DNA from: a virus
Reading direction: 5' to 3' (one strand)
IMG/VR virus record: IMGVR_UViG_3300027963_003320
Span: 1-53,394 of that record
Length of the DNA: 53,394 bases
In this document: positions 46,528-53,394 of the stretch, one piece after another
Layout: each line of letters begins with the position of its first letter
Numbering within the stretch: position 1 is the first letter of the stretch
The notes under the pieces: generated by a model
Databases searched by the model: none
Seen by the model: only the letters and a program-made list of their open reading frames with translations
Told to the model about the DNA's origin: nothing
Translations under genes and position numbers: made by a program

Positions 46528-47310
46528 ATGAAAATTGCAGTTATTTTCGGTGGACAAATACGAACAGGTGTAGAAACTTCAAAAAGTATATTTAATTTTC
46601 TAGGAGAATATTTACCATATTGTGATTTTTTTGTACATACTTGGGATATCACATCATATAAAAATGGAGATTATCAGAATTCACATTCACCTGATTTTAA
46701 TTGGGATGCTATAAAATTAAAAGAAGAATATTTAAATGAGTTTTTAGAAATATACAAACCATTAAAATATAAAATGACTCCGTTTTTAAAATATAGAGAA
46801 GAAATGGAAAATATTCCATCACAATTACCACCATTACCACCAATGCCTGCCTGGACATATTCATTTTGGAAATCAAATGAATTAAAAAAAGAATATGAAA
46901 ATGAAAATAATTTTAAATATGATTATGTCATAAAATTAAGAACAGATTTAATATTCTGGCCTGAAATGATTTTAAAACCTATATTGGAATTTATAATAAA
47001 TAGTCAATTGAAAAAATTACCAATATATCATTTGGAAGATATGTTATACTTATCTACAAGTGAGGGAATGGATATTATGAGTTCAATAGGACATCCAACG
47101 AATGGTATATTATTGGAAGATTTTAGACAAAACTATTCAAACGATTTGAATAGAAGAATTGTTAAATTTGCACATGATACATTTGATAACATACCAAAAA
47201 TTAGTTTTGGAGCAAATTCTGGATATTTTTTATTAAGGCCTGAGGCAAAGGATTTTTCTTATGAAGAAATGGATAAGATGTATTATATATTTAAACACTA
47301 CTATGATTAA
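46528..47310 (+). CDS. Putative glycosyltransferase (RTD type, 2)
   Basis: A 260-residue protein. It starts KIAVIFGGQIRTGVETSKSIFNF and has FFVHTWD near residue 36. The strand YVIKLRTDLIFWPEM near residue 140 gives an R-T-D motif like the RFD of 13179-13847. FGANSGYFLL further down suits an acceptor loop. Such proteins are often named after capsule transferases without proof. A TATATTTA box (46506-46513) lies upstream but lacks a matching -33 box. Confidence 0.6.
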   Translation: MKIAVIFGGQIRTGVETSKSIFNFLGEYLPYCDFFVHTWDITSYKNGDYQNSHSPDFNWDAIKLKEEYLNEFLEIYKPLKYKMTPFLKYREEMENIPSQLPPLPPMPAWTYSFWKSNELKKEYENENNFKYDYVIKLRTDLIFWPEMILKPILEFIINSQLKKLPIYHLEDMLYLSTSEGMDIMSSIGHPTNGILLEDFRQNYSNDLNRRIVKFAHDTFDNIPKISFGANSGYFLLRPEAKDFSYEEMDKMYYIFKHYYD

Positions 47311-47322
47311 AACAAAAACAGC

Positions 47323-47958
47323 ATGAAAAAAGTAATATTGTTGGTTACACTATTAGTTATTAGTGTTACATTATTCTCACAAGATGTATTAGTATTAAAA
47401 CATACAAATTACACATCGAATTTCAGCAAGTCAAAAAAATATCCAGTAATGGTAGAGTGGTGGGAAACTAAAGCAAAAGTTAGTTGTCCAAATCCATTAC
47501 CAAGAAGAGATGCATTTCAACCTGACCCACAAGCAATAGTAGAAACGGATATCAAAGCTGACTATGTAGGTAGTGGTTATGATAGAGGGCATATGTCTCC
47601 TGCAGCATCCAACCAATGTCAAACTGCAGATGTTCAAATTGAATCGTTCTATATGAGTAATATGTCAGCACAAACACATAGACTAAATGCAGGTGATTGG
47701 AAGTCATTAGAAGTTTTGACAAGAGAATGGGCAAGTAAATATGATTCAGTTCACATATGGGCAGGTAATGTAGGTGAGATTAAAAGAATAGGTAGAGTTA
47801 CAGTTCCAAAACAATGTTGGAAAGTAGTATACATTAAAAAAACAAAAGAGTGGATGTTTTTTTTATTTGAAAACGACCAATCAAATCCAGACGGAATAAA
47901 TAACAATAAAGTTTTAAGACAAGATATAGAAAAATTAACAAGATTAAAATTTAAGTAG
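47323..47958 (+). CDS. Secreted DNA/RNA non-specific endonuclease (NUC family)
   Basis: A 211-residue nuclease with signal peptide (1-19, ending LFS). The beta-beta-alpha-metal motif is DRGH (87-90) with His90 as general base; N113, Q117 and N122 in SNMSAQTHRLNAGDW form the Mg site and helix. This matches the Serratia nuclease/NucA family, which cuts DNA and RNA without sequence choice. Export would put it in the periplasm or outside, away from phage DNA. No inhibitor gene was recognised. Confidence 0.9.
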   Translation: MKKVILLVTLLVISVTLFSQDVLVLKHTNYTSNFSKSKKYPVMVEWWETKAKVSCPNPLPRRDAFQPDPQAIVETDIKADYVGSGYDRGHMSPAASNQCQTADVQIESFYMSNMSAQTHRLNAGDWKSLEVLTREWASKYDSVHIWAGNVGEIKRIGRVTVPKQCWKVVYIKKTKEWMFFLFENDQSNPDGINNNKVLRQDIEKLTRLKFK

Positions 47959-47962
47959 CAAA

Positions 47963-48475
47963 ATGAGAACTACCAAACTTGTAACATTAAATGAAGAAAT
48001 CCAATTAATAGATAAATTGGGTGATGAGTTATTAAGTGGTGGGTTTAATTCATCTAATTCGGTCATTATAGTCGTTTCTACGGACTATTCAGCAATAGCA
48101 GGACAAATACTTAGACACAAACTATCTTTCAATGGTGAGATAGTAGAGGGGTTTGGAATAGATGTACCATATCCTGATGAGGTGTGGAATAAAAAATATG
48201 TAGATACAATGTCAGCAGTATTTCAAAACTATGGTTATCTATTACAACGCAAAACAGTAATATTAATTGAAGCAGGTGTGATTAGAGGTGGCAATTATGA
48301 GTTTGTAACAAAATGGATGAAAAAACATTTAGGAATAGGAACACCAATTATCACTTTAACAATGTTTGAAAATATAGATAGTAGGTTTAAATCGGACTTA
48401 GTAGGTGAATATTATGATGATAAAACAGAAGATTTAACTTTTTGGTGGGAAAAGGATAACAAACATTGGAAATAA
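47963..48475 (+). CDS. Phosphoribosyltransferase-like protein
   Basis: A 170-residue protein. The first strand VIIVVSTDYSAIAGQIL and the later KTVILIEAGVIRGGNYEFV resemble the first loop and PRPP-loop region of type I phosphoribosyltransferases, although the standard acidic pair is replaced by EAG. A nucleotide-salvage or queuosine-like role is possible. The end FWWEKDNKHWK is unusual. The call is tentative. Confidence 0.5.
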   Translation: MRTTKLVTLNEEIQLIDKLGDELLSGGFNSSNSVIIVVSTDYSAIAGQILRHKLSFNGEIVEGFGIDVPYPDEVWNKKYVDTMSAVFQNYGYLLQRKTVILIEAGVIRGGNYEFVTKWMKKHLGIGTPIITLTMFENIDSRFKSDLVGEYYDDKTEDLTFWWEKDNKHWK

Positions 48476-48484
48476 TATAAGGTT

Positions 48485-50161
48485 ATGCAAATTGATTTTA
48501 ATTGGGTAAAGGTAGATAATATAAATAAATTTATTTATTTTAATTATTTTATATTTTCATCCGGCAATATGTTTTTTGAAAAATATGCATTTGATTTTGT
48601 TATTGAATTGGTAAATAGTAAAAAATATACCGATTATAAAATAATAATAGACCAGTTATCCGAACCAATTTGTAATGCAGGTAAACAGAGTTCAACAAAT
48701 GGATACCTAAACAATTATAAACTAATTGCTCCACATTTAAAAAATAAAGAAGTATATTTTATTTCTGATAATTCAAGTAAACAATTTAAAGAATGGATTA
48801 AAGAAGAATTTGGATGGAAACATATAACATACCACTTTCATTTTAATAATATAGTTACGGCAGCATTTACAAAATTGCCAATAAAAATAAAATCGGATTC
48901 GTATAAAAAGAAAATTATTATTATAAATGGAAATATGGATAATGACCACAAACCATTAGCTAAAAAAATGATGACTGATTTAAACCTATGGGATATATCA
49001 TATTGGTCATTCGCTGATAATACTAATTTTGGAATGGAAATATATCAACATTCAAAAAATTTATTTGTAATTTTTCAAAAATTAATTCCCCTATTTGAAA
49101 ATTCATTTTTATATGTAGTGACAGAAACATCATCTGATAACACTTACACCGATACAAATATTAGAGTAGATTTTATGTCAAAAATGGGTAGAGCATTGAT
49201 ATTACCTATGCCATTTGTAGTAATTGGAAATATGGGTGTATTAAAACATTTAAAAGAATTGGGATTCAAAACATTTTCAAATTGGTTTGATGAATCATAT
49301 GATGATATTGAAAATTTGGAAGAAAGAATGGTAGTAATAAAAAATTTAATTAAATCATTAAAAGATATAACATCCGAAAACCAATTAAAAATGAGAAATG
49401 AAATGTTAGACATTTTTACGCATAATAGGAAAGTTTTAAAAGAAATGATGTATTTTGAAGAAAAAAATATAAATTTGGAAATACCAAATTTTTTAACTAA
49501 ATTTGGTTATGAACCAATTAACTATGAAATAATGGAAGAATATAATATAAATAAATTTACAATTTTTTATCATAAAAATTTAGATGGTGGTGGGACTACA
49601 TTTGGAATAAATGCATTAAATTCATCAAATGTAAAAAAACAAATAAAATCCGGAAATATTTTAGAAATATGTTCGGGTCCTGGTTTTATGGGATTTTGGA
49701 CATATTATCACGAATATGCTAAAAAATTATTTTTATTAGATATTAATTCTGAAAATGAAGAGTATATAAATAAAACAATAGATTATAATACAATTGGTAA
49801 TAATACAAAGTTTAAACAATCCAATGTATTTGATAGTTTTACAGATAATATAATTTTTGATACAATAATAAGTAATCCACCACATTTTAAAACAAAAAGA
49901 CCTGGAGGATATAGAAATGAAAATGAAAAATTAATATCATTAGATGAAAATATGGAATTTCATATAAAATTTTTTAAAGATGTTAAACGATTTATGGATA
50001 AAAATAGTCGTATTATATTGGTTGAAAATTGTGATGGAGTAACTGAAGAAGATATACGAGAAATGACAAAAAACGATTTTAGAGTAGAATTAGTTGAATA
50101 TAATAAATATGGTTGGCAAGGAGAATCTACTTTTTATACAATTATTTTATACTTATTGTAA
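48485..50161 (+). CDS. Glycosyltransferase-like domain fused to a class I methyltransferase
   Basis: A 558-residue two-part protein. The first 330 residues hold TDTNIRVDFMSKMGRALILPMPFVVIGN ahead of LKHLKELGFKTFSNWFDESYDDI, which resembles the donor half of the protein at 27390. From about residue 385 a SAM methyltransferase begins: ILEICSGPGFMGFWT (motif I), LFLLDINSEN (motif II) and ISNPPHF (motif IV, NPPH as in N-methyltransferases). It might add and then methylate a sugar or base. The target is unknown. Confidence 0.72.
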   Translation: MQIDFNWVKVDNINKFIYFNYFIFSSGNMFFEKYAFDFVIELVNSKKYTDYKIIIDQLSEPICNAGKQSSTNGYLNNYKLIAPHLKNKEVYFISDNSSKQFKEWIKEEFGWKHITYHFHFNNIVTAAFTKLPIKIKSDSYKKKIIIINGNMDNDHKPLAKKMMTDLNLWDISYWSFADNTNFGMEIYQHSKNLFVIFQKLIPLFENSFLYVVTETSSDNTYTDTNIRVDFMSKMGRALILPMPFVVIGNMGVLKHLKELGFKTFSNWFDESYDDIENLEERMVVIKNLIKSLKDITSENQLKMRNEMLDIFTHNRKVLKEMMYFEEKNINLEIPNFLTKFGYEPINYEIMEEYNINKFTIFYHKNLDGGGTTFGINALNSSNVKKQIKSGNILEICSGPGFMGFWTYYHEYAKKLFLLDINSENEEYINKTIDYNTIGNNTKFKQSNVFDSFTDNIIFDTIISNPPHFKTKRPGGYRNENEKLISLDENMEFHIKFFKDVKRFMDKNSRIILVENCDGVTEEDIREMTKNDFRVELVEYNKYGWQGESTFYTIILYLL

Positions 50162-50182
50162 ATAACTTAAAATTAAATTATT

Positions 50183-50341
50183 ATGTGGAAAATTTGCTTA
50201 TCAGGAACAGACATTGCAATTGAAGGATGTGAGTCTATGACCGAAGAACAAGTAACTATTTGGTTTTTAGAAAATCAAGTAACATTAGATGAAGCAAATG
50301 AATATGGTGATACCACTAAATTCATTTGCTTAAATGTTTAA
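50183..50341 (+). CDS. 52-residue hypothetical protein
   Basis: A short reading frame from ATG 50183 to the TAA ending at 50341, where the next gene's ATG overlaps. The product is acidic (MWKICLSGTDIAIEGCESM ... KFICLNV) with Cys at both ends and a central helix. An A/T-rich leader of 20 bases precedes it. Codon use fits the neighbours. Function unknown. Confidence 0.6.
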   Translation: MWKICLSGTDIAIEGCESMTEEQVTIWFLENQVTLDEANEYGDTTKFICLNV

Positions 50342-51054
50342 TGGTGGATTATAAAGGTTACGAATTTTATTTATTTGGATGTTCACATTCATCCAATCTA
50401 CATCACGAAACATTTCCTTATTTTGATAAAGCGGTTACATTGTGTTATGGTGGAAATTCTAATGATAGAATTTTACGTGAACTAAAAGATACAATATTAC
50501 ATTTAACAAATAATTTAACACAAAAAGTAGATAATATATATTTTAATATACAATTTACTTATTTTAATAGATTTGAAATATATTCGGATGTAGATAAAAA
50601 ATATATTCCATTTCACTCTCCAAACATAGCAAAACAACATTTTACAGAAAATCATCCATTATCAAAAGAATATAACGAATTTTATAAAAATTGGTTAACT
50701 TATATTTTTGATGAAGAAACTAGATTAAAAGAATTACTAATAGAATGTAAAATTCTTAAAAATTTAATGGATTCATTTGGTATAAAATATAGTTGGTGTT
50801 TGTGGGCAGGAATACATGGTGTTGAAATTGTAAATAGTGAAAAGCAAATAATTCAACAAAATATTATATTTACAAATGAATTTGAAGAACTTGGATTTGA
50901 AAAATTTGATGAATTTTGGTATTTTGAAGATTACGCAAAATTTAATAAAATGAGAAATTGTGATATAGCGGATAATATAGATGAACATTTACATACTGAA
51001 GCAAATTATGTTTTAGCAGAAATCGTCAAATTAAAATTCATACAAAAAACTTAA
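50341..51054 (+). CDS. SGNH hydrolase-like protein (paralogue 7 of 7)
   Basis: A 237-residue protein. ATG 50341, which overlaps the upstream TAA (TAATG), is preferred over a TTG at 50326. Block I is LFGCSHSSNLHHE, with Cys before Ser as in paralogues 2 and 6. YGGNSNDRILRELKDTIL forms block II, with a conserved Asn, and DEHLHTEANYVLAEIV the Asp/His block. It is the most diverged member and the last protein gene before the RNA island. Confidence 0.68.
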   Translation: MVDYKGYEFYLFGCSHSSNLHHETFPYFDKAVTLCYGGNSNDRILRELKDTILHLTNNLTQKVDNIYFNIQFTYFNRFEIYSDVDKKYIPFHSPNIAKQHFTENHPLSKEYNEFYKNWLTYIFDEETRLKELLIECKILKNLMDSFGIKYSWCLWAGIHGVEIVNSEKQIIQQNIIFTNEFEELGFEKFDEFWYFEDYAKFNKMRNCDIADNIDEHLHTEANYVLAEIVKLKFIQKT

Positions 51055-51091
51055 TACATAACTCATTGATTTCCAATAACTTACAAGTTTA

Positions 51092-51123
51092 TTTGGTAAT
51101 TCAGGATATTTATCGTATATTTG
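51092..51123 (+). promoter_or_regulatory. Bacteroidota-type promoter (P6, tmRNA)
   Basis: TTTG at 51092-51095, 20 bases, then TATATTTG at 51116-51123, a full match to TAnnTTTG. The tmRNA 5' end at 51136 lies 13 bases further on. Confidence 0.88.
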
Positions 51124-51135
51124 ATATAACAAATT

Positions 51136-51501
51136 GGGGATGCTATGGAATTGATTGCAATGTAAATGGTAGTATCACACGTGGACAAAGCATGAATGTC
51201 CTTAAATACTTGCAAAACAACAAAAGACGAAAAGTCAACAATGACTTACAATGACCTTATGGCATTCGTAGGTATGGATTACGCTGTAGCAGCATAACCA
51301 ATCCCGTACACATCATGGGACTTTAAATAGAATGTGAAATGAGTTTACTGAAACCTAAAATCAGTTGGTGGCCAGTTGTATTACCATACAGCCCTTATTA
51401 TTTTGGAAAGTTTGTAAGATTAAACTTTATCCTAAACGTGTGAAATGCTGATATTATTAGTTCTTTGTAAGACAGGGGTTCGATTCCCCTCATCTCCACC
51501 A
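51136..51501 (+). ncRNA. ssrA: Transfer-messenger RNA (tmRNA) with tag GMDYAVAA
   Basis: A 366-base RNA that rescues stalled ribosomes by acting first as tRNA-Ala, then as mRNA. The ends pair as a tRNA acceptor: GGGGATG (51136-51142) with CATCTCC (51491-51497), one G-U pair, then A and an encoded CCA. A T-arm AGGGG-TTCGATT-CCCCT precedes the 3' strand. The tag frame is best read from GGT 51271 as GMDYAVAA then TAA (51295-51297), ending in the protease signal AVAA. Bacteroidota host tags commonly end YALAA. Helices such as CCCGTACACATCATGGG follow the tag. Confidence 0.92.
51271..51297 (+). other. tmRNA tag reading frame (GMDYAVAA-stop)
   Basis: GGT ATG GAT TAC GCT GTA GCA GCA TAA. The resume codon is set at GGT by analogy to the TTCGTA-GGx context of Bacteroidota tmRNAs. 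The frame is also open upstream (AFV), so a longer tag is possible. Confidence 0.75.
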
Positions 51502-51511
51502 AAAAAACATA

Positions 51512-51543
51512 TTTGGTAATTTGAAAAAGTTATCGTATATTTA
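51512..51543 (+). promoter_or_regulatory. Bacteroidota-type promoter (P7, initiator tRNA)
   Basis: TTTG at 51512-51515, 20 bases, then TATATTTA at 51536-51543. The tRNA begins at 51553, so the primary transcript would start very close to the mature 5' end. Confidence 0.86.
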
Positions 51544-51552
51544 ATTTAATAT

Positions 51553-51624
51553 CGCGGGATAGAGCAGAGGTAGCTCACGTGGCTCATAACCACAAGGTCG
51601 GAGGTTCGAATCCTTCTCCCGCAA
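51553..51624 (+). tRNA. Initiator tRNA-fMet (CAT)
   Basis: Cloverleaf with anticodon CAT in loop CTCATAA (51583-51589). Initiator features are the C1 x A72 mismatch at the top of the acceptor (CGCGGGA / TCCCGCA) and the A11-U24 pair in the D-stem. The anticodon stem is GTGG/CCAC, so one of the three G-C pairs usual in bacterial initiators is U-A. T-loop is TTCGAAT. CCA is not encoded. Confidence 0.93.
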
Positions 51625-51629
51625 CAAAT

Positions 51630-51696
51630 AAGATGATTGGTTGAAGCCAATAGTAATAAAACCGACTATGTGTTAAAGCCGGACATCAATTATCTT
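51630..51696 (+). other. Acceptor-like helix with hairpins (tRNA-shaped remnant or processing element)
   Basis: AAGATGA (51630-51636) pairs with TTATCTT (51690-51696), seven pairs with one G-U. Inside are TTGG-TTGAAG-CCAA, resembling a D-arm, and CCGAC/GCCGG with one mismatch. No T-arm with TTC is present and no anticodon is convincing. It may be a decayed tRNA, or the end of the tRNA-fMet transcript since A and T runs follow. Confidence 0.4.
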
Positions 51697-51714
51697 AAAA
51701 AAGTTTTAAATAAA

Positions 51715-51746
51715 TTTGGTAGAATAAAAAATTATTCGTATATTTA
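51715..51746 (+). promoter_or_regulatory. Bacteroidota-type promoter (P8, giant structured RNA)
   Basis: TTTG at 51715-51718, 20 bases, then TATATTTA at 51739-51746. No protein gene starts within 1 kb downstream, so this promoter serves the structured RNA. Confidence 0.85.
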
Positions 51747-52659
51747 TTAAAACCGAAAGGAAGTTCTTTAAAAGATTAAAATATTTACGAAGTGGGTTTC
51801 GACTCACATAGTAAACAACGGCCGCTTATGGTCGTCAAATAAACTACGAAAGTAGGATAAAGTGGGTGTATTTAAGTGATACATCTGCGGTTACTCTCCC
51901 CGTAAGGAGAGACTAACTTAAGTAAGCAAGTGGGATATTGTTTGAGCTTTGTACGAAAGGGTAACACTATATCGGAAGAGTTTGGATAATTGGGGTAGTA
52001 TAGATACTCCAATTGAGGTGGGAACACCAATAAGAATAACCCATAGAATATCTTGTAAGAAGTGTAGACTTAATCCCTCTACATCATTGCGGTATTCAGT
52101 TTGATAGTTATCTTAACATTAAGCCATCCGAAAGGACGCAAGATAAGATAGTGTACAAGTGGTGTTGTTACCATCCTTATATAGAGTTTGCCAAAACCTA
52201 TATTTGAAGATGACTTAAAAAACCGCAGTAGGGATATTGCATCGAGTAGTTTAGTATTCTCTTGACCAAAAGTTGAGGGAGCTAGTGGTAAACCGCTACT
52301 TGAATCATTCTATAAACTAAAACTCAATTTGAATAGTAATTCAAACTACAATTTAAAATTAAGCTTAAGTGTTTACCAGTTGCAGATGAAAGGTGTGTAC
52401 ATAGTTAAGAGATGTTCTTAGCCACGATACCTCCGCAAGAGGTCTGTGATTCTATCGAAAGGTTTCTAATTCCGCAAGAATTAATTAGGTCGCGAGGCTT
52501 GAAGAAAATAAGTAAGTAGAGAGTAATCGGCAACTTATAGACTGATAGTCTTAAATCATCCACATTGAATTGGTACTACTCAAAAGGTAGTGGAAACGGG
52601 AGGAACTAATAATCTTTCTAAAGCTGGTTCACCAAATAGAGTATTCTCATCTATTTATA

Positions 52660-52731
52660 AGCGGTGTTAGTGTAACAGTAGCACATCGGACATTCCAGTT
52701 CGAAGGAGGGGGGCAGCACCTTTTACCGCTC
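52660..52731 (+). tRNA. tRNA-like domain, Gly(TCC)-like, with abnormal T-loop
   Basis: AGCGGTG pairs with TACCGCT (seven pairs, one G-U), a D-arm TTAGTGTAACAGTAGCAC is present, and CGGAC/GTTCG closes a six-base loop ATTCCA that would show TCC. The T-arm is AGGGG/CCTTT with loop GGCAGCA in place of TTCRANY. So it is tRNA-shaped but unlikely to be a working tRNA. It sits inside the 3' domain of the giant RNA. Confidence 0.5.
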
Positions 52732-52735
52732 AACA

Positions 52736-52806
52736 GTAATTTAATGAGGCTAGTATTAACCGGAGCATGACTTGACGTGGCGTATTTTGAAATTGAATTA
52801 CTTTTT
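52736..52806 (+). terminator. Terminator-like end of the giant RNA
   Basis: GTAATTTAAT (52736-52745) pairs with ATTGAATTAC (52792-52801), ten pairs with one wobble, followed by five T. The 46-base loop is itself structured, so this is both the last helix of the RNA and a probable transcription end. Confidence 0.6.
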
Positions 52807-52817
52807 ATAGAGAAAAA

Positions 52818-52886
52818 ATGAAGAACTTAACATTACATACAGCAGATTGTCTAACCATTAGAATTTGGGGTGGCAATAGTATGTAA
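52818..52886 (+). CDS. Possible 22-residue leader peptide
   Basis: ATG 52818 to TAA 52886 encodes MKNLTLHTADCLTIRIWGGN followed by Ser-Met. An A-rich stretch (GAGAAAAA) precedes the ATG, as at other starts here. It lies between the giant RNA and the terminator ahead of the tRNA array. It could be an attenuator peptide or chance; there is no further support. Confidence 0.3.
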   Translation: MKNLTLHTADCLTIRIWGGNSM

Positions 52887-52918
52887 AGTTAGGAAAGTTT
52901 ATTCAAATAATTTATGGA

Positions 52919-52948
52919 AACCCTGACTTTAATTAGTTGGGGTTTTTT
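52919..52948 (+). terminator. Rho-independent terminator before the tRNA array
   Basis: AACCCTGACT (52919-52928) pairs with AGTTGGGGTT (52935-52944) around TTAATT, followed by T. The tRNA-Ile begins seven bases after it and no promoter of the P1-P8 type is seen between, so the array depends on readthrough or on a different promoter. Confidence 0.85.
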
Positions 52949-52954
52949 GTTTTT

Positions 52955-53026
52955 GGAGTATAGCTCAATTGGTTAGAGCACCATCCTGATACGGTGGTTG
53001 TTGAAAGTTCGAGTCTTTCTATTCCA
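52955..53026 (+). tRNA. tRNA-Ile (GAT)
   Basis: Cloverleaf with anticodon GAT in loop CTGATAC, stem CCATC/GGTGG. D-arm AGCTCAATTGGTTAGAGC and T-loop TTCGAGT are standard. The acceptor GGAGTAT/CTATTCC has one mismatch at its base. No encoded CCA. Confidence 0.9.
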
Positions 53027-53033
53027 ACACATA

Positions 53034-53104
53034 TCCGGTTTAGTGCAATGGCAGCATGTAGGTCTCCAAAACCTTTGATTACAGTTCGAGTCTGTAAACC
53101 GGTG
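53034..53104 (+). tRNA. tRNA-Trp (CCA)
   Basis: Anticodon CCA in loop CTCCAAA, stem AGGT/ACCT. D-stem GTGC/GCAT, T-arm TACAG-TTCGAGT-CTGTA. The acceptor CCGGTT/AACCGG is well paired; the first pair is T-T. G73 is the Trp discriminator. No encoded CCA. Confidence 0.88.
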
Positions 53105-53109
53105 CAAAT

Positions 53110-53182
53110 AGTTTCATAGTGAAATGGATTATCACATAACACTACGAATGTTAGAGTGTAGGTTCGAGTCCTACTGAAACTA
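53110..53182 (+). tRNA. tRNA-Arg (ACG)
   Basis: Anticodon ACG in loop CTACGAA, stem TAACA/TGTTA. The acceptor AGTTTCA/TGAAACT is perfectly paired and the T-loop is TTCGAGT. A34 would need deamination to inosine by host TadA. No encoded CCA. Confidence 0.92.
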
Positions 53183-53188
53183 CAATAA

Positions 53189-53259
53189 GGTGAGTTGTCC
53201 GAGTGGCTAGGTGAAGGTCTGCAAAACCTTTTACATTGGTTCGATTCCAATACACACCT
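53189..53259 (+). tRNA. tRNA-Cys (GCA)
   Basis: Anticodon GCA in loop CTGCAAA, stem AAGGT/ACCTT. U73 is the Cys discriminator. The acceptor GGTGAGT/ACACACC has one A-A mismatch. T-arm ATTGG-TTCGATT-CCAAT is standard. Confidence 0.9.
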
Positions 53260-53266
53260 CTTATAT

Positions 53267-53338
53267 GTTGAGCGTAGCCTAATGGTAGGGCAAAAGTTTG
53301 TGGCACTTTGTGTGTGAGTTCGATTCTCATCGTTCAAC
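53267..53338 (+). tRNA. tRNA-His (GTG)
   Basis: Anticodon GTG in loop TTGTGGC, stem AAAGT/ACTTT. The encoded G(-1) at 53267 faces C73 at 53338, the His identity pair. Acceptor TTGAGCG/CGTTCAA, T-loop TTCGATT. Confidence 0.92.
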
Positions 53339-53344
53339 CAAAAT

Positions 53345-53394
53345 ACCCGTATGGCGGAATTGGTATACGCAGTGGTCTTAGAAGCCATACAATT
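53345..53394 (+). tRNA. tRNA-Leu (TAG), cut by the window end
   Basis: ACCCGTA acceptor strand, TGGCGGAATTGGTATACGC D-arm of the Leu/Ser type, and anticodon TAG in loop CTTAGAA closed by TGGT/GCCA. The variable arm and 3' half lie beyond the window. Confidence 0.82.

Follow-up and report, generated by a model that had tools for sequence, protein, structure and literature searches.

A GOLLD RNA of a probable Bacteroidota phage carries a boxA-type element shared with ribosomal RNA leaders

What is encoded by the roughly 1 kb that separates an initiator-like tRNA from a tRNA array near the end of an uncultured virus genome? We analysed the entire virus record of 53,394 bases, referred to below as the window. 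The first-pass annotation of this DNA had described about 1 kb without a gene at this place and proposed a giant structured RNA, either a GOLLD relative or a new class; we likewise found no protein gene of note at 51640-52930. A covariance scan of 47000-53394 with Rfam models, the check which that annotation had recommended, returned GOLLD (RF02032) with 277.7 bits (E 3.5e-79, gathering score 150) over model positions 1-416 of 416, and no ROOL match up to E = 5. Because of this match the GOLLD option was the correct one, and we regard it as practically certain that the RNA belongs to GOLLD, a known family to which it adds a member. A ROOL identity is rejected for lack of a match. The reading as a giant structured RNA is borne out by a predicted fold of 51752-52737 that is more stable than dinucleotide shuffles (z -3.1) and by helices that covary in relatives. 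The best explanation of the locus as a whole, to which we assign a probability of about 0.8, is a GOLLD RNA transcribed by the host RNA polymerase together with the rRNA antitermination complex. The features on which this reading draws are as follows.

51092-51122, plus strand: promoter of the same type as that of the GOLLD unit, before the tmRNA gene (pattern search); no boxA in the sequence read after it
51136-51501, plus strand: tmRNA gene (RF00023, 79.2 bits, gathering score 47)
51512-51542, plus strand: promoter of the same type before tRNA-Met (pattern search); no boxA in the sequence read after it
51553-51625, plus strand: tRNA-Met (CAT) (ARAGORN; RF00005, 60.8 bits)
51715-51745, plus strand: promoter of the GOLLD unit, TTTGGTA-N14-TCGTATATTT, an exact copy within a five-member family
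51763-51773, plus strand: putative boxA-type antitermination element GTTCTTTAAAA, a perfect match to GYTCTTTAANA
51784-51815, plus strand: leader hairpin with a UUCG-type loop between boxA and the 5' domain (predicted fold)
51820-52235, plus strand: 5' domain of GOLLD, not covered by the Rfam model (homology and 22 covarying helices)
52242-52653, plus strand: GOLLD 3' domain (RF02032, Rfam covariance model, full length)
52305-52370, plus strand: A/U-rich linker in the 3' domain (unpaired stretch in the Rfam alignment)
52473-52477, plus strand: loop CGCAA, candidate self-kissing loop L21a (assigned by position)
52661-52730, plus strand: deviant tRNA-Gly(UCC)-like element, 7 nt after GOLLD (relatives, covariation)
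52916-52947, plus strand: predicted intrinsic terminator of the GOLLD unit (stem with T tail), followed by the tRNA array

The order of the gene block is tmRNA, tRNA-Met, GOLLD and tRNA array. The earlier account of the region was right about the giant RNA but had overlooked the tmRNA at 51136-51501 and the tRNA-like element at 52661-52730. By inspection, tRNA-Met is initiator-like, with a C1-A72 mismatch. ARAGORN finds tRNAs on both sides of the GOLLD gene, in keeping with the occurrence of GOLLD in phages and prophages near tRNA genes. ARAGORN does not call the tmRNA of the window; its tag frame (51226-51297) reads DEKSTMTYNDLMAFVGMDYAVAA-stop and is identical to the tags that the program calls in L138, L158, L128 and L130. 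In many phage loci (the window, L138, L158, L128, L130, L134, L147 and others) a tmRNA precedes tRNA-Met and GOLLD. Usual tmRNA tags have 10-14 amino acids; tags near GOLLD are often longer, with 22-26 and a conserved interior STMT[FY]..DxMAF.. A 151-aa open reading frame on the minus strand (52933-53388), antisense to the tRNA array, is taken as chance, and a repeat scan of 51000-53394 found no tandem repeats. PHROGs matches on 20 window proteins include a clamp loader, glycosyltransferases, radical SAM proteins and a nuclease; they fit a phage without naming its lineage.

Relatives were gathered by two pattern searches of a viral collection and one of genomes, followed by nhmmer, which yielded 163 GOLLD loci, 146 of them with a full 3' domain. 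Locus counts given below are not counts of independent events, since related phages share ancestry. Both viral patterns target the 3' domain, and the choice of loci therefore does not bias what is said about the 5' end. The order tRNA-Met, GOLLD is found also in L002, a 634-kb uncultured phage.

The promoter that had been noted upstream of the RNA is one of five exact copies of TTTGGTA-N14-TCGTATATTT in the window (at 51092, 51512, 51715, 23935 and 27125), where shuffles predict none (0 in 100). We take it to be the Bacteroidota -33/-7 type. It would place the start of GOLLD transcription near 51752. A TANNTTTR element precedes boxA in 84 of 110 relatives, and hairpins similar to that at 51784-51815 are present in near relatives. 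At the other end, a terminator-like sequence had been reported by position 52806; a terminator is indeed predicted but lies farther downstream, at 52916-52947, and GOLLD itself ends at 52653. Terminator prediction gave two sites against 1.2 expected, and the one at 52916-52947 is supported mainly by its position.

The leader of the transcript contains GTTCTTTAAAA, which agrees at every position with the boxA consensus GYTCTTTAANA published in PMC5725501, a consensus derived for gamma-proteobacteria, the inferred host phylum here being Bacteroidota. It lies about 11 nt past the inferred start and thus, like an rRNA-type boxA, early in an untranslated transcript. In 96 of 115 distinct GOLLD loci the strict 9-mer GYTCTTTRA stands 380-700 nt ahead of the 3' domain, where the background of 0.018 per stretch of that size predicts about two. 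In most of the other 19 the corresponding place holds a variant that differs by one or two bases. The loci of Mycobacterium and Oceanobacillus and L267, with other 5' sequences, are exceptions, and L232 has no GTTCTT element within 900 nt; boxA of the window form is therefore not universal in GOLLD. Six of 20 stretches from genome contigs are GOLLD by Rfam, and none of these six bears it.

The same element is found before ribosomal RNA genes. The 16S leaders were drawn from genomes of the order to which G001 belongs (59) and of its phylum (198), since no 16S gene was found in six genomes with pattern matches. Of 36 distinct Bacteroidota leaders, 25 have the strict motif no more than 350 nt from 16S, and most of the other 11 have a near variant. 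In these leaders boxA lies 80-270 nt before 16S, and its context is common to the two kinds of transcript (aaanGTTCTTTGAaA in rRNA leaders, aaanGTTCTTTgAAa in GOLLD). This shared context and the promoter type fit a Bacteroidota host; judged from sequence, the gene most likely belongs to a tailed phage of that phylum. A literature search, largely without subscription journals, found no paper treating boxA and GOLLD together, and the link appears new to the literature searched. Overall, we consider it likely, from sequence comparison, that the boxA of the window works as an antitermination signal.

Could the conserved GTTCTTT instead be a phage promoter or initiation element? Its near-fixed spacing would suit such a role: the distance from the promoter to the start of boxA is 26-28 nt in many loci, and 16 nt in the window. 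However, hardly any other promoter of this type bears it. About 280 further same-type phage promoters left 11 boxA matches, which by inspection are four further GOLLD genes, four sites before tmRNA or tRNA genes and three sites inside tmRNA genes. Together with the occurrence of the element 80-270 nt before 16S in rRNA leaders, this makes the initiation reading unlikely. A boxA-type element right after tmRNA or tRNA promoters was seen at L147 ~7970 (plus strand), L065 ~10022 (plus strand), L211 ~7711 (reverse complement) and L002 ~4495. Since it stands right after such promoters in a few phages, boxA may mark stable-RNA units in general.

A second alternative accepts the element as boxA and lets it act in trans, abundant GOLLD serving as a sponge that titrates NusB-S10 and lowers host rRNA synthesis in infection. 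It draws on the same evidence from GOLLD loci and rRNA leaders, and the element falls in a part of the transcript that is predicted to be unpaired in the centroid fold. A sponge, however, could bear boxA anywhere, whereas the observed place right after the promoter is what action in cis requires. We consider a sponge quite improbable and retain antitermination in cis as the preferred function.

The first-pass annotation had assigned this stretch to a 13-bp helix closing 858 bases (51766-51778 with 52610-52623); the 5' strand of this helix overlaps GTTCTTTAAAA. The complementarity exists in the window (13 pairs, one bulge, duplex -7.3 kcal/mol), but only 6 of 110 relatives retain the full set of 13 pairs, and 66% of cells are paired versus 96% for consensus helices. 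Covariation between the two strands, proposed with the helix as its test, was not seen among the 110 relatives. The 3' strand sits in a hairpin of the Rfam GOLLD consensus that changes on both sides (GUUGG/CCAAC in L002 versus GGGAG/CUUUC in the window), and the 5' strand agrees with the boxA found in rRNA leaders. The helix is best seen as chance complementarity, with each strand conserved on other grounds. On the 110 relatives we reject the long-range closing helix, and with it, as very improbable, the reading of GTTCTTT as its 5' strand rather than an antitermination signal.

The Rfam model covers only the 3' half of the RNA. In an nhmmer search from the window sequence the 5' domain is full-length in 107 of 110 loci bearing boxA or a near variant. 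RNAalifold predicted 22 helices with 106 pairs between 51822 and 52233 (83 sequences of <95% identity), with standard pairs in 95.9% of cells; moving the 3' partner by 1-3 columns lowered this share to 37-42%, and exchanging partners at random between sequences lowered it to 77-78%. Some lean is expected in these figures, the structure having been predicted on the alignment also used for testing, though that alignment was built from sequence alone. Both sides change in 76 of the 106 pairs. The median length from boxA to the 3' end is 876 nt over 110 loci, in line with a GOLLD RNA of >800 nt with a less conserved 5' domain. In L240 and L246 the 5' region is unlike that of the window, and GTTCTTTAA-type elements nevertheless lie upstream, at -414 and -377. 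The idea that this giant phage RNA forms a class of its own and only looks like GOLLD could point to the short model (416 positions) and to a 5' half without an Rfam match, but it has next to no probability and is rejected by the high-scoring, full-length match of the 3' domain.

A rise in expression during phage lysis counts among the criteria for GOLLD. The solved GOLLD structure, env-38, is a 14-mer with a cap made of the 5' domain and a ring made of the 3' domain (PMC12286853); it was found downstream of Met-tRNA, and its linker faces the cage interior (PMC12286853). A symmetric contact between subunits through loop L21a is reported to switch between GC and CG (PMC12286853). We examined the candidate L21a at 52473-52477 in 105 distinct relatives, all of them loci not chosen by this loop; the count had been repeated without loci from the first viral pattern because that pattern is biased for a CCGCAAG loop. 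The centre is GC in 59, CG in 20 and AU in 4, self-complementary in 83 of 105; of the 22 others, most have diverged at this place or cannot be aligned there. GC, CG and AU are all self-complementary, which supports the L21a contact, and AU is apparently a further state of the loop. The linker at 52305-52370, which carries no tRNA in the window, would be the counterpart of the interior-facing linker of env-38. By analogy with that structure, the RNA of the window probably forms a multimeric cage.

The element at 52661-52730, called by neither ARAGORN nor Rfam, has a D-loop without GG, an expanded anticodon loop and a non-canonical T-loop. Searching the entire viral collection by pattern yielded nine further copies (L081, L158, L211, L295 and L310-L314), and all 10 copies, that of the window included, lie directly 3' of GOLLD. 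Each has a D-loop AACAGT or AATAGT and a T-loop GGCAGMA or AGCRAAA, departing from a canonical tRNA elbow; without GG in the D-loop and TTCRA in the T-loop, a normal elbow is unlikely. Pairing is kept in 96.6% of cells and five of six anticodon-stem pairs are changed on both sides, which argues against simple decay. The acceptor and the UCC loop presumably fit glycine identity. Other loci have an ordinary tRNA-Gly or tRNA-Met at the same place, and an ARAGORN tRNA lies within 60 nt in 19 of 76. In L138, L143 and L147, tRNA-Gly-like genes ~20 nt after GOLLD have a ~24-nt hairpin inserted in the D-loop and are not called by ARAGORN. Processing at the neighbouring tRNA-like element may define the 3' end of GOLLD, a possibility that we hold tentatively.

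The antitermination factors of rRNA operons are recruited by boxA, which is both required and sufficient for this (PMC10250234). Since an untranslated transcript of ~1 kb would be exposed to Rho as rRNA is, we infer that GOLLD is completed and folded with the help of this complex, which the phage would take over from its host. Host RNA polymerase would initiate near 51752, and the nascent boxA, like that of an rRNA operon, would bring in NusB-S10 (NusE) of the host. The polymerase would then become Rho-resistant over the ~1-kb untranslated RNA, which would also aid co-transcriptional folding. As in env-38, the 5' domain would fold into the cap and the 3' domain into the ring of a multimeric cage. 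The 3' end would perhaps arise by processing at the tRNA-like element, and transcription would stop at 52916-52947. A more ambitious joint reading, in which a GOLLD of a Bacteroidota phage is made like rRNA by boxA-loaded polymerase and has an elbow-less tRNA-Gly-like RNA as partner or cargo, strikes us as rather doubtful; in it, this RNA, present directly at the 3' side of GOLLD in one lineage, retains an anticodon loop with UCC and an acceptor of the glycine type and is not a translation tRNA.

Among known systems, the RNA resembles GOLLD (RF02032, env-38) in its full 3' domain, separate 5' and 3' domains, length of >800 nt, adjoining tRNAs, position downstream of Met-tRNA and palindromic candidate L21a loop. 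It differs in the boxA leader, undescribed for GOLLD in the literature searched, in the deviant tRNA-Gly-like element on its 3' side and in the neighbouring tmRNA. ROOL is likewise a large, cage-forming phage RNA near tRNAs (PMC12286853), but ROOL is without an Rfam match here up to E = 5. With the rRNA operon and its rrn antitermination complex the locus shares a boxA that fits the consensus early in a long untranslated RNA and the extended context of Bacteroidota rRNA leaders; unlike there, boxA precedes a phage cage RNA and a leader-trailer closing helix was not found. As for the tRNA-like element, we take a non-proteinogenic tRNA-Gly of Staphylococcus to be similar, with a UCC anticodon and a D-loop that has lost the GG pairing with the T-loop. 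We treat this as no more than a lead, as the element of the window differs in its expanded anticodon loop, its host and its constant place directly after GOLLD.

If GOLLD production needs the host rRNA antitermination complex, the few bases of boxA offer a genetic handle: changes there should abolish full-length GOLLD while sparing all proteins. The reach of the Nus complex, with rRNA and a few mRNAs as its targets, would then come to include a non-coding RNA of a phage, a class that the boxA survey PMC5725501 states to be outside its consideration. The setting of tmRNA, initiator-like tRNA and tRNAs points to a role of the GOLLD cage tied to the translation apparatus, and the tRNA-like element, found only beside GOLLD, is a concrete candidate for its working partner.
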